From Nanobdellati archaeon (GTDB taxonomy: Archaea; B1Sed10-29; WALL01): a stretch of 34,398 nucleotides of DNA. The DNA lies in the NCBI GenBank assembly GCA_015522845.1, contig WALL01000024.1, positions 1-34,398 on the forward strand. Direction: 5' to 3'. How positions within the stretch are numbered: the first letter of the stretch is position 1; each line of letters starts with the position of its first letter. Shown here piece after piece: positions 16,103-27,873 of this stretch. The translations under genes and the position numbers were made by a program. Below the pieces are notes generated by a model that worked only from the letters and a program-made list of their open reading frames with translations, ran no database searches and was not told where the DNA came from.

Positions 16103-16363
16103 ATGGCAACACGGAAATTTGCTATTGCAAAGCAACTTGGCGGGAAGCGCGTAATAACTAACAAGGGGGAGGAGATAGGCCGGCTCAGTGATATACAGGT
16201 TGACGAGAGGACAGGCGACCTAGAGACGTTCCTGGTTGAGCCAGCGGCTGACTCCAAGCTAGCAGCCAGCCTTCCTAAAGAAGATGATTACATAATGGTG
16301 CCCTTCAAGGCAATATTTGCTGTTAGTGATGTCATAGTCGTTGATGAGACACTAATAGCGTAG
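16103..16363 (+). CDS. PRC-barrel domain protein
   Basis: 86 aa: AKQLGGKRVITNKGEEIGRLSDIQVDERTGDLETFLVEP...YIMVPFKAIFAVSDVIVVD. Confidence 0.85.
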   Translation: MATRKFAIAKQLGGKRVITNKGEEIGRLSDIQVDERTGDLETFLVEPAADSKLAASLPKEDDYIMVPFKAIFAVSDVIVVDETLIA

Positions 16364-16493
16364 GCCCGCCGTGGCTTTTTTCAACCATAATCCCAGTAAG
16401 CTCGCTGGGATGCATATCAAGCGCATGGGCAGCCTCAAAAAGGCTGATTTTTCCGTCCCGGTAAAGAGCGATAATCCTGTCTAGCTTTTGCAT
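16332..16493 (-). CDS. 53-aa mini-HTH protein (UPF0175-like C-terminal motif)
   Basis: Not in the ORF track. MQKLDRIIALYRDGKISLFEAAHALDMHPSELTGIMVEKSHGGPTLLVSHQRL; SD-like GAGGTG 7 nt upstream of the ATG. Confidence 0.6.
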   Translation of the reverse strand: MQKLDRIIALYRDGKISLFEAAHALDMHPSELTGIMVEKSHGGPTLLVSHQRL

Positions 16494-16520
16494 TAACTAA
16501 CACCTCGCTTTTAAGAAAAG

Positions 16521-16603
16521 GGTGGAGTGAGGGGGGTATGGTGATTCTTGGGAACCATTGCGCTGCTCTTGGTAGGATTCAGCGTGAACACCCTCGCTCC
16601 AAC
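16521..16603 (-). ncRNA. Candidate structured RNA: three-way junction, sRNA or 5' leader of the mini-HTH gene
   Basis: Minus strand: GTTGGAGCGAGGG pairs with CCCTCACTCCACC (11 contiguous bp incl. one G-U); inner hairpins CGCTG/CAGCG and ATGGT/ACCAT; TATA box at 16621-16632 places the TSS near 16601. Confidence 0.5.
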
Positions 16604-16620
16604 TACTATTGGTGCTAGTC

Positions 16621-16632
16621 TCATATATAAAG
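16621..16632 (-). promoter_or_regulatory. TATA box (CTTTATATATGA on the minus strand)
   Basis: Centre about 25 bp upstream of the 5' end of the structured-RNA stem. Confidence 0.5.
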
Positions 16633-16665
16633 ATTTCGTCAAATTTACGTAATATGACGTTTTTT

Positions 16666-17667
16666 TCATAGTTTAACCGTCATTTTCTGGCTCTTTTTGT
16701 CAATGAAGGCTTTTCCGCCAAGCTTTTCATTAATCTCATCATAACTAAGCCCTTTTTTCCTCAGGGATCCCACTTTCTCAATGAGCTCAGCAAGCTCCTG
16801 CCAATGCCCGTAAACGGCGTCGCCAGCTTCCTTGTAAAGCTCTGCCTTCCTCTCAAGCTCGGCAATTGCGCCCTCCTGCTGTGCGATTTTCCGCCTTACT
16901 TTTTCCGCCATTCTGCTGTCTGGTGCGGCCTCGGCATGCAGCTCATCAATTGCTTCACTTAGGCTTTTCTTCGGGAAGAACCCCTTGCCTGGGAAGCGGC
17001 GCACCACTGGCTTCCCTGCCTGTATGCCTGGCTCATAGCTTTCTAGATATGACTTTATCAGCCCAAACAGCTTCTCATTTGGCTGCATTGCATTCTTATC
17101 AACACCCGCCTCTGCACAGGCAAGCTCAAGGTAGCTCCCACCCATCTTTATCCCAGAGACAAGCGAGTGTATCACATCTTTCTCGCCAAACAGTGCATTG
17201 AACTGCCCCTTTGTCATCTCCCTTGGGTCAAGCTTTCCGGATGGCGGGAGGGCATAGCGCTCACCCCTCTTGATTTTCCTTGCACTCCATTCCTCATCGC
17301 GGAAAGCCTTCTCTATCAAGCCATCCGCACCCACGATTACCGCATTGCCATGGGAGAAAAGCTCAAACACAAGCTTTTGCCCGCTGTCCAGCCCAAGCAC
17401 AACAATGCGGTCAAAGCCTGGCTGGCTTATGGAGACCAGCTTCCCATGCAGGCGCTTGCGCGCGTATTGTGTGAAGCCGTGGGGCGGCCTTGCTGGACGC
17501 TTATGATGGCTTATGTAAATGCTTTCCGGGACATCGGCCACTATTTCCATATTCCCAAATTTCAGCTTCCAGCCGCTATCCAGGTCGGATATCCTGTCCA
17601 GATAGCTGCCAACCGCCGGCTGCAGCTCTTCCACAACCCAATGTATCTCAAGGTTTGATAGCGGCAT
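16666..17667 (-). CDS. NFACT-N / coiled-coil protein (RqcH/NEMF-like) lacking NFACT-R
   Basis: MPLSNLEIHWVVEELQPAVGSYLDRI, YARKRLHGKLVSISQPGFDRIVVL (DR motif), long coiled coil, ends KKSQKMTVKL. Confidence 0.82.
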   Translation of the reverse strand: MPLSNLEIHWVVEELQPAVGSYLDRISDLDSGWKLKFGNMEIVADVPESIYISHHKRPARPPHGFTQYARKRLHGKLVSISQPGFDRIVVLGLDSGQKLVFELFSHGNAVIVGADGLIEKAFRDEEWSARKIKRGERYALPPSGKLDPREMTKGQFNALFGEKDVIHSLVSGIKMGGSYLELACAEAGVDKNAMQPNEKLFGLIKSYLESYEPGIQAGKPVVRRFPGKGFFPKKSLSEAIDELHAEAAPDSRMAEKVRRKIAQQEGAIAELERKAELYKEAGDAVYGHWQELAELIEKVGSLRKKGLSYDEINEKLGGKAFIDKKSQKMTVKL

Positions 17668-18428: not shown

Positions 18429-19652
18429 TCAACCCTTCAGAAAGCTTAGCGCAAACTTTGTTATGGAGGGAGAGGCCTTGACAAGCGCCTTTATCAGCTC
18501 TGCAAGCCCCTTGCCATGCCCGAGGTCGACAAGCATCTCTGGCTTTAGCTCGCCCTTCTTTACCAGGTCAGCCACAATGTTAAACTGCTCATCATTTAGC
18601 TTCTCGACAAAGTGCCTAACGTGGAGTATCTTCTTGAACTCCCCGCCACGCTTTTCTTGCCACATCTTTTGGTAAGCCATCAGCTCCTTCTTGCTGGTAT
18701 CTCCCTTTTTGATTGCTGCAGTGCCAACTTCAGCAGCCATCTGCGCTGCCTCCAGTGCTGAGCCCATACCCCCGCCGTGTATTGGGTTTACCATACGTGC
18801 TGCATCGCCAACGAGCATTATGCCATCGCCAACAAACTCGCCAACGGGCTTTGTTACGGGTATCACGCCTGCGTTTATCTCGGTTATTGACGCATCTTTA
18901 AAGCGCTCATGGTTTGCCTCAATCCAAGCATCAAGGCAGTCTTTTGCTGTCTCAGCTGAATCCCCGCTTATGCCTATGCCAACATTTGCGACGTCCTTTC
19001 CCTTTGGGAATACCCAAACGTACCCTCGGGGTGCGACATTTGTCCCAAAGTAAAGCTCCATGTAGTTTGGGTTCTCAATTGGCACGTTCGCCATCTCATA
19101 CTGGTATCCAGAATCGCACTCGCCAAGCGGCATTGCAGTGCGCAGGCCAGCATACCTACCAACCATTGAGTCAACACCGTCGCATGCAACCACGAGCTTT
19201 GCATAGTACTCTTCCTCTTTCCCCTCGCGGCTTACCTTTACACCTTTTACTGCCTTGCCTTCCATCACAAGCCCAGTGACAAGCGCCTTAAGCATGTATT
19301 TTGCACCGCTGCGTATGGCCTTCTCTGCCTCCATCTTTTCCCATTGGCTCCTCTCAATTATATAGCCCGTCTGGCCTGTGCTGCCAGTGTCAATATAGAC
19401 CTTCTCACCGTTTGGTGCGACAAGTGTTGCCCCGGTGATTTCCTGCAGTGCCCAGCGCGGGTTTGGCTTTAGCTTGCCTATTTTTACCCATCTTATTGAC
19501 AGGCCCTCTCCGCAGCGCTTTGGCGGGCCAATCTGCTGCTTCCTATCAATTACAAGGGCCTTCATCCCCCTCTTGGCAAACTCCTGGGCTGCCATGTTGC
19601 CAGCAGGCCCGGCGCCGACTATTATCACATCCCACTCTTTTTCGTAATTCAT
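18429..19652 (-). CDS. Geranylgeranyl reductase family flavoprotein
   Basis: VIIVGAGPAGNMAAQEFAKRG, PPKRCGEGLS, GDGIMLVGDAARMVNPIHGGGMGSALEAAQMAAEV. Confidence 0.92.
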   Translation of the reverse strand: MNYEKEWDVIIVGAGPAGNMAAQEFAKRGMKALVIDRKQQIGPPKRCGEGLSIRWVKIGKLKPNPRWALQEITGATLVAPNGEKVYIDTGSTGQTGYIIERSQWEKMEAEKAIRSGAKYMLKALVTGLVMEGKAVKGVKVSREGKEEEYYAKLVVACDGVDSMVGRYAGLRTAMPLGECDSGYQYEMANVPIENPNYMELYFGTNVAPRGYVWVFPKGKDVANVGIGISGDSAETAKDCLDAWIEANHERFKDASITEINAGVIPVTKPVGEFVGDGIMLVGDAARMVNPIHGGGMGSALEAAQMAAEVGTAAIKKGDTSKKELMAYQKMWQEKRGGEFKKILHVRHFVEKLNDEQFNIVADLVKKGELKPEMLVDLGHGKGLAELIKALVKASPSITKFALSFLKG

Positions 19653-27696: not shown

Positions 27697-27787
27697 TCAA
27701 TCACCAATGCGCCGAAGCGCGGCTTTCATCTAATGGCGGTACCGCCGGGCCTTACCCCCATGCCATATCCCTTCCAAGAAAGCCCAG

Positions 27788-27873
27788 TGCGGGGGAAGGG
27801 ATTTGAACCCTCGAACGCACTAAGCGACTAGGCCCTGAACCTAGCACATTTGGCCAGGCTTTGCTACCCCCGC
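27788..27873 (-). tRNA. tRNA-Leu, anticodon CAG
   Basis: Minus strand GCGGGGGTAGCAAAGCC...CTAGG-TTCAGGG-CCTAG anticodon arm, long variable arm, GAGGGTTCAAATCCCTT T-arm, CCCCCGCA acceptor; no encoded CCA. Confidence 0.93.

Follow-up and report, generated by a model that had tools for sequence, protein, structure and literature searches.

A structured leader RNA of a small HTH gene in Diapherotrites and its possible pairing with the 3'UTR of an unlinked winged-HTH gene

The window analysed here is the whole 34,398-nt contig 24 of the archaeal MAG G000 (0.75 Mb), whose named relatives belong to Candidatus Diapherotrites. Upstream of an unannotated 53-aa open reading frame (ORF), the original prediction had placed a structured leader RNA with its own promoter and had compared it with a cis-regulatory RNA. 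The locus raises the question of whether this leader is complete in itself or whether its conserved parts have a partner elsewhere in the genome. To our knowledge, regulatory RNA of DPANN archaea is almost unexplored, because these organisms are nearly all uncultured.

The promoter, the leader RNA and the HTH gene

The TATA box expected on the minus strand at 16632-16621 is present as CTTTATATATGA, and the leader RNA corresponds to 16601-16523 (minus strand), between this box and the ORF (Table 1). The TATA box is separated from the closing stem, P1, by 21-23 nt in all five genomes that carry the leader. Given this constant distance, P1 marks the predicted transcript start, which agrees with the start near 16601 proposed from the window alone; the constancy is also the best evidence that the sequence offers for a leader on the minus strand.

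The computed fold has a minimum free energy of -26.4 kcal/mol, compared with -17.4 kcal/mol for 200 dinucleotide shuffles (z = -3.4), none of which was as low. Sequence and fold contain the two hairpins as they had been described, CGCUG/CAGCG (P2) and AUGGU/ACCAU (P3), with CCAAGA in each loop. The closing stem also exists, with 10 bp and one C-A mismatch in place of an uninterrupted 11-bp helix, and is followed in all five leaders by a run of three to five U. The Shine-Dalgarno sequence (SD) GAGGTG at 16506-16501 and the ATG at 16493 lie where they had been placed, downstream of the leader; the proposed distance of about 30 nt to the SD has to be shortened, P1 ending about 16 nt before the SD and 29 nt before the ATG.

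No Rfam 15 family matched the leader segment at the gathering threshold or at E <= 1 (the best hit, at E 2.8, scored 10 bits where the cut-off is 80), and no match at E <= 1 was found in the loci of five relatives. We thus agree that the leader is covered by no Rfam family, and also that it is not a tRNA. A riboswitch is recognised by an extended aptamer preceding functionally related genes; here an 11-nt loop and a stem precede one gene only. Two further readings of the leader were rejected: sequestration of the SD by ACUAGCACC/GGUGUUAGU, since ACUAGCACC precedes the predicted start and is not found in G001, and a leader peptide running through the loops (LPRAA...FPR frame), because this frame is broken in G002 and G008. 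A K-turn reading of GCGA-GGUG/UACC-AAGAGC was made by eye only and is not supported as such.

The 53-aa ORF, formerly called HTH-like, is a real gene conserved in seven genomes. Its relatives were found by protein search in G004, G005 and G008 and by profile in G003, and the substitution values (pS 0.83 versus pN 0.15 between G000 and G001; Ka/Ks 0.12 between G005 and G008) indicate that it evolves under purifying selection. The UPF0175 profile weakly matches all six HTH-gene relatives at E below 1 (best E 5.5e-6), the window protein itself scoring 17.7 bits against PF03683, under the gathering cut-off of 27.9. By profile, the window protein and the UPF0175/COG2886 family have the HTH core YxxGxISLxEA in common, whereas the N-terminal part of the family is missing from the window protein. 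Its AlphaFold2 model (mean pLDDT 80.5) has three confident helices (residues 2-12, 18-24 and 29-41), in line with an HTH core, and most Foldseek neighbours of this model are HTH regulators, all with E of 0.8 or above. UPF0175/COG2886 proteins are partners of PIN toxins (PMC2701414); no PIN gene was found among the scanned neighbours of the HTH gene.

The operator-like element upstream of the gene is kept in G001, G003 and G004 and partly in G002 and G008, and its TTGACGAAATCTTTATATA stretch has no other copy in the window when up to three mismatches are allowed. The HTH protein or another regulator may bind at its inverted repeats. A second TTACGTAA cluster is located on contig 31 of G000 (18818-18850, L005). 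Downstream of the HTH ORF, sequence similar to the PRC-barrel gene region is also seen in G001, G004, G005 and G008. Elsewhere in the window (27787-27873, minus strand), ARAGORN matched a tRNA-Leu(CAG) that is below the Rfam gathering threshold.

Table 1. Positions of the features of the HTH locus in the window
Feature	Position	Strand	Basis or remark
NFACT-type gene	end at 16666	minus	upstream of HTH promoter, leader RNA, then 53-aa ORF
Operator-like element CGTCATATTACGTAAATTTGACGAAAT	16633..16659	minus	inverted repeats TTACGTAA and CGTCA...TTGACG; BRE-like CGAAAT at end
TATA box TTTATATA	16624..16631	minus	read directly; spacing to P1 conserved
P1 5' strand UGGAGCGAGGG	16591..16601	minus	fold; compensated changes in relatives; at predicted transcript start
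P2 hairpin CGCUG...CAGCG	16561..16584 (strands 16584-16580 / 16565-16561)	minus	fold; bears invariant loop
Invariant loop CCUACCAAGAG	16566..16576	minus	identical in five genomes
P3 hairpin AUGGU...ACCAU, second CCAAGA loop	16538..16558 (strands 16558-16554 / 16542-16538)	minus	genus-level only
P1 3' strand CCCUCACUCCA	16523..16533	minus	fold; compensated changes in relatives
Extended Shine-Dalgarno GCGAGGUGUU	16499..16508	minus	complementary to ACACCUCGC (two copies) in winged-HTH 3'UTR
Three-helix HTH gene, 53 aa, UPF0175-related	16332..16493	minus	conserved in relatives
PRC-barrel gene, 86 aa	16103-16363	plus	convergent with HTH gene; ORFs overlap 32 bp

Conservation of the leader in two families

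The leader is found upstream of the orthologous ORF in five Diapherotrites genomes of two families (G000, G001, G002, G005 and G008). A DNA search recovered it in G001 (86% identity) and in G002, which retains both loops and has another stem sequence; in G005 and G008, which belong to the other family, a different stem with the same loop CCUACCAAGAG precedes the same ORF. The leader RNA is absent in G003 and G004, though ORF and promoter are present. The P1 strands of the relatives are UGGAGCGAGGG/CCCUUCGCUCCA (G001), UGAAGUGAAGGG/CCCUUCACUUCA (G002), GGAGGGUGC/GCGCCCUCC (G005) and UUGGAGAG/CUCUCCAA (G008). Covariation, which had been named as a check of the stem, is indeed seen: P1 changes in sequence and is kept as a stem, two positions having changed on both strands between G001 and G002. 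The shuffle p values of P1 in the five leaders are 0.084, 0.017, 0.001, 0.012 and 0.004, the window copy being the weakest. P1 pairs were checked by hand because the MAFFT alignment across both families misplaces inner P1, and the G000 pairing was taken from its fold.

The three-way junction that had been described does not persist as a conserved core, which is reduced to P1 and the loop CCUACCAAGAG. The P2 sequence is conserved in G001 and its stem is weaker in G002; P3, with the second CCAAGA loop, is present in G000 and G001, altered in G002 and absent in G005 and G008. Besides the known Diapherotrites members, a contig pattern scan for the motif gave 12 records of other lineages, which we take as chance because about 14 were expected by our own estimate. 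No viral contig contained the motif pattern.

Fold, conservation and selection on the ORF support a structured leader that is preceded by a promoter of its own and leads into a genuine HTH gene. These properties (a structured RNA at the transcript 5' end, with a covarying stem and an invariant loop, always before the same gene) would suit a self-contained cis-regulatory leader, be it a riboswitch, a thermosensor or a protein-binding element. The match in the distant 3'UTR described below would then be a functionless relic of a duplication or inversion. We consider this rather improbable: the lack of Rfam matches extends to the relatives' loci, 11 conserved nt and a stem would make a small aptamer, the gene persists without the leader in two genomes of the family, and a functionless copy would not hold the complementary block CUCUUGGUA invariant in six 3'UTRs. 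The "cis-regulatory RNA" probably represents just one half of a larger system, because both its loop and the SD are complementary to the 3'UTR of an unlinked winged-HTH gene.

The complementary 3'UTR of a winged-HTH gene

Searched in 19 genomes of the class, the loop-motif pattern occurs in the leaders and in few other places (50 motif places were retrieved and scored for stems and open frames). Three of them, non-coding and located in G002, G005 and G008, adjoin the same winged-HTH gene, as does a site with one mismatch in G000. This gene is Penicillinase_R-like, is present by profile in 17 of the 19 genomes (L139-L155) and is unlinked to the HTH locus, lying on contig 34 in G000. These four matches are not independent, because the motif itself led to the partner. 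G001 and G003, which the pattern missed and which were located via the winged-HTH gene, are independent and carry (U)UACCAAGAGCAGC and GCGAGGUGUU on the opposite strand after the stop.

Read on the winged-HTH strand, the 3'UTR consists of a stem GGGUGGG/CCCACCC, a loop of about 95 nt and then, in most cases, a pyrimidine tract (CUAUUUCU, CUCUUUCUUUC) which, as judged from its sequence, is of terminator type. In G000, the segment from the stop to this tract corresponds to 17656-17775 of contig 34. The stem starts 5-9 nt past the stop in the five genomes for which it was selected automatically. In G002, G003 and G008, the next gene on this strand is preceded further on by a TATA-like box of its own. 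When six 3'UTRs are compared, two long blocks prove invariant: GGGTGGG, one strand of the stem, and CTCTTGGTA, which is exactly complementary to UACCAAGAG. The loop itself has a single long invariant block, CUCUUGGUA (hereafter the anchor), the exact complement of the leader loop CCUACCAAGAG; in the predicted 3'UTR fold, this anchor is about half paired (mean unpaired 0.29-0.61). A G/C-rich stem soon after the winged-HTH stop is seen in most genomes, even in those without the HTH gene and the motif. On contig 18 of G001 (L142), a second partial stem copy, AGAAAGGAGGGGGGTGGGAAGCAGCCC, lies beside the 3'UTR, as if the element had been duplicated.

Since a same-sense motif and an antisense match are identical at the DNA level, the partner RNA could also lie on the opposite strand, where GGUGYUU...CCUACCAAGAG would recur in a terminal stem and one protein or ligand, perhaps the HTH or an RNP protein, would bind both RNAs, the leader copy autoregulating the HTH gene. 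The motif, the G-rich/C-rich terminal stem and the upstream GGUGYUU would then be same-sense in both RNAs, GGUG/UACC could pair within the motif, and the opposite strand folds slightly better in some genomes (G002, G001). Wobble pairs in the stem favour the winged-HTH strand in G008 and G006 and the opposite strand in G000, G001 and G012. We nevertheless infer an RNA of the winged-HTH strand, from the proximity of the stem to the stop codon, the pyrimidine tract that follows in this direction and the lack of a conserved promoter on the opposite strand, where a correctly placed TATA box, read by eye, was missing in four of the six cases. Moreover, a shared recognition motif would be permuted in its order relative to the stem between both RNAs and does not require the SD to change jointly with the 3'UTR (see below). 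The covariance model R1 of the leader found no match in the 3'UTRs, which are therefore not second copies of the leader RNA. Such a common binding motif thus appears unlikely.

In a small set of seven genomes, from two related families, the 3'UTR loop was scored genome by genome for gapless complementarity to the HTH leader, against 300 dinucleotide shuffles. The best site reached p <= 0.0033 (the limit set by the number of shuffles) in every genome; for the best two sites, the value was p <= 0.0066. In the genomes of family f1 with leader RNA, the two best sites are the anchor and the SD, and both are complementary in every leader-bearing genome. The leader-loop site extends over 12-16 nt in G000, G001, G002, G005 and G008, with imperfectly matched flanks in G000 and G001; in the window, leader positions 16575-16561 (CUACCAAGAGCAGCG) show this complementarity to the 3'UTR of the genome's own winged-HTH gene, and the leader loop is, tied, the top-scoring complementary site of the 34 kb on both strands. 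The SD complementarity measures 7-19 nt in all seven genomes (third-ranked in G005) and is longest where the leader loop is absent, in G003 and G004 (UUUCGCGAGGUGUUUU, 16/16; UUUUAUUUUUGCGAGGUGU, 19 nt with one break, ~18/19). G004 has neither the leader loop nor the 3'UTR anchor, and G003 retains the anchor although its HTH leader has lost the target. For the SD sites of these seven genomes, the complementarity covers the ribosome-binding site (RBS) of the predicted target and is kept in related species, as expected of a putative anti-RBS sequence.

GGUGU in family f1 and GGUGC in family f2 change jointly in leader, SD and 3'UTR, and the SD differences in f2 are A to G, with pairing kept as G-U. 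Cross-genome pairing is only weakly diagonal. With RNAduplex over whole RNAs, 38 of 980 background segments were as good as the leader/3'UTR pair, energies that are uninformative because G/C-rich stems dominate them.

Chance or codon effects would explain these matches if the motif merely resembled histone LPRAA codons (CTACCAAGAGCAGC) and GAGGTG were simply an SD. GAGGTG is a general SD, and the histone starts of G003 (L157, L169), with their LPRAA codons, match the anchor over 13-15 nt; in one of them, histone b, the region around the SD is also similar to the 3'UTR (E 0.018). This is probably a codon effect, because the match is weaker in other genomes. The anchor, however, lies between genes and five genomes keep it in both places, GCGAGGTGTT, the extended SD, is rare, and the histone starts of other genomes match poorly, which makes this explanation very improbable. 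Histone mRNA was rejected as a target, given the poor match of the histone starts outside G003.

A possible mRNA-to-mRNA control and related systems

On this computed pairing potential we build, tentatively, a preferred reading of mRNA-to-mRNA antisense control, for which 3'UTR-strand transcription, actual pairing and the direction of the effect are presumed from sequence. Transcription would begin at P1, which would close a structure displaying CCUACCAAGAG, with SD and ATG next. In the winged-HTH mRNA, the stem directly past the stop would enclose the loop that carries both CUCUUGGUA(G) and ACACCUCGC. Either intact or as a processed small RNA (sRNA), this 3'UTR would dock through the anchor on the leader loop and pair with the HTH SD; the ribosome site would be masked and HTH translation lowered. 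In the alternative direction, which is just as conceivable, the leader would titrate the winged-HTH 3'UTR. The wider proposition, that two DPANN regulator mRNAs are wired by direct pairing (leader loop and SD against 3'UTR anchor and anti-SD) and co-evolve across two families, we advance a little more guardedly. No account of such a pair in Diapherotrites was found in the literature searched.

The same complementarity would serve a leader released as an sRNA of about 80 nt, acting as a sponge for, or a destabiliser of, the winged-HTH mRNA, with HTH translation incidental. Such an RNA would start at P1, and a U run follows P1 in all five leaders. A U stretch is, however, also found before the SD in G003 and G004, which are without the RNA; the SD belongs to the pairing in 7/7 genomes and the HTH gene is under purifying selection, so that we give this version little credence.

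Pairing of the 3'UTR with the HTH mRNA would have parallels in archaea. In sRNA162 of Methanosarcina mazei, a trans-acting RNA with two separate pairing domains, an unstructured region pairs with the RBS of an mRNA that encodes a transcription factor and masks it (PMC3510493). Trans pairing over the RBS and two separate pairing domains are likewise predicted here from sequence, but sRNA162 is a small RNA of its own, demonstrated by experiment, whereas the partner proposed here is the 3'UTR of another regulator mRNA and the predicted target has a structured docking loop, both known from computation. In sRNA154 and sRNA41 of M. mazei, an anti-RBS sequence, located in a loop in sRNA154, blocks translation initiation (PMC5867862); these are intergenic sRNAs of another lineage, for which we claim no sequence relation. 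Bacterial sRNAs derived from 3'UTRs, such as SdhX (PMC6393394) and that of glutamine synthetase (PMC9731577), resemble the proposed system in that a regulatory RNA from an mRNA 3' end acts on another mRNA; they differ in having their own RNA chaperones and nucleases, the element described here being a large loop closed by a terminal stem, in a DPANN archaeon.

If true, comparative genomics would here have revealed a conserved cross-talk between the 5'UTR of one transcription-factor-like gene and the 3'UTR of another, in minimal genomes, with a leader that is a structured RNA outside every public family. The exact sites given here can be used for compensatory-mutation testing and for reading existing metatranscriptomes.

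Finally, GCGAGGTGTT has seven copies in G000: the HTH SD, two in the partner 3'UTR and four others, of which two are the SDs of H1-like and aspartate carbamoyltransferase-like genes (names by eye). This extended SD also precedes carbamoyltransferase-, orotate phosphoribosyltransferase- and CTP synthase-like genes (names by eye from N-termini), at sites on contig 27 of G000 (L176, L177), contig 16 of G001 (L185), contig 20 of G003 (L178) and contig 53 of G004 (L197). Since pyrimidine (and arginine) genes recur behind GCGAGGTGTT, the winged-HTH 3'UTR could have a small regulon.
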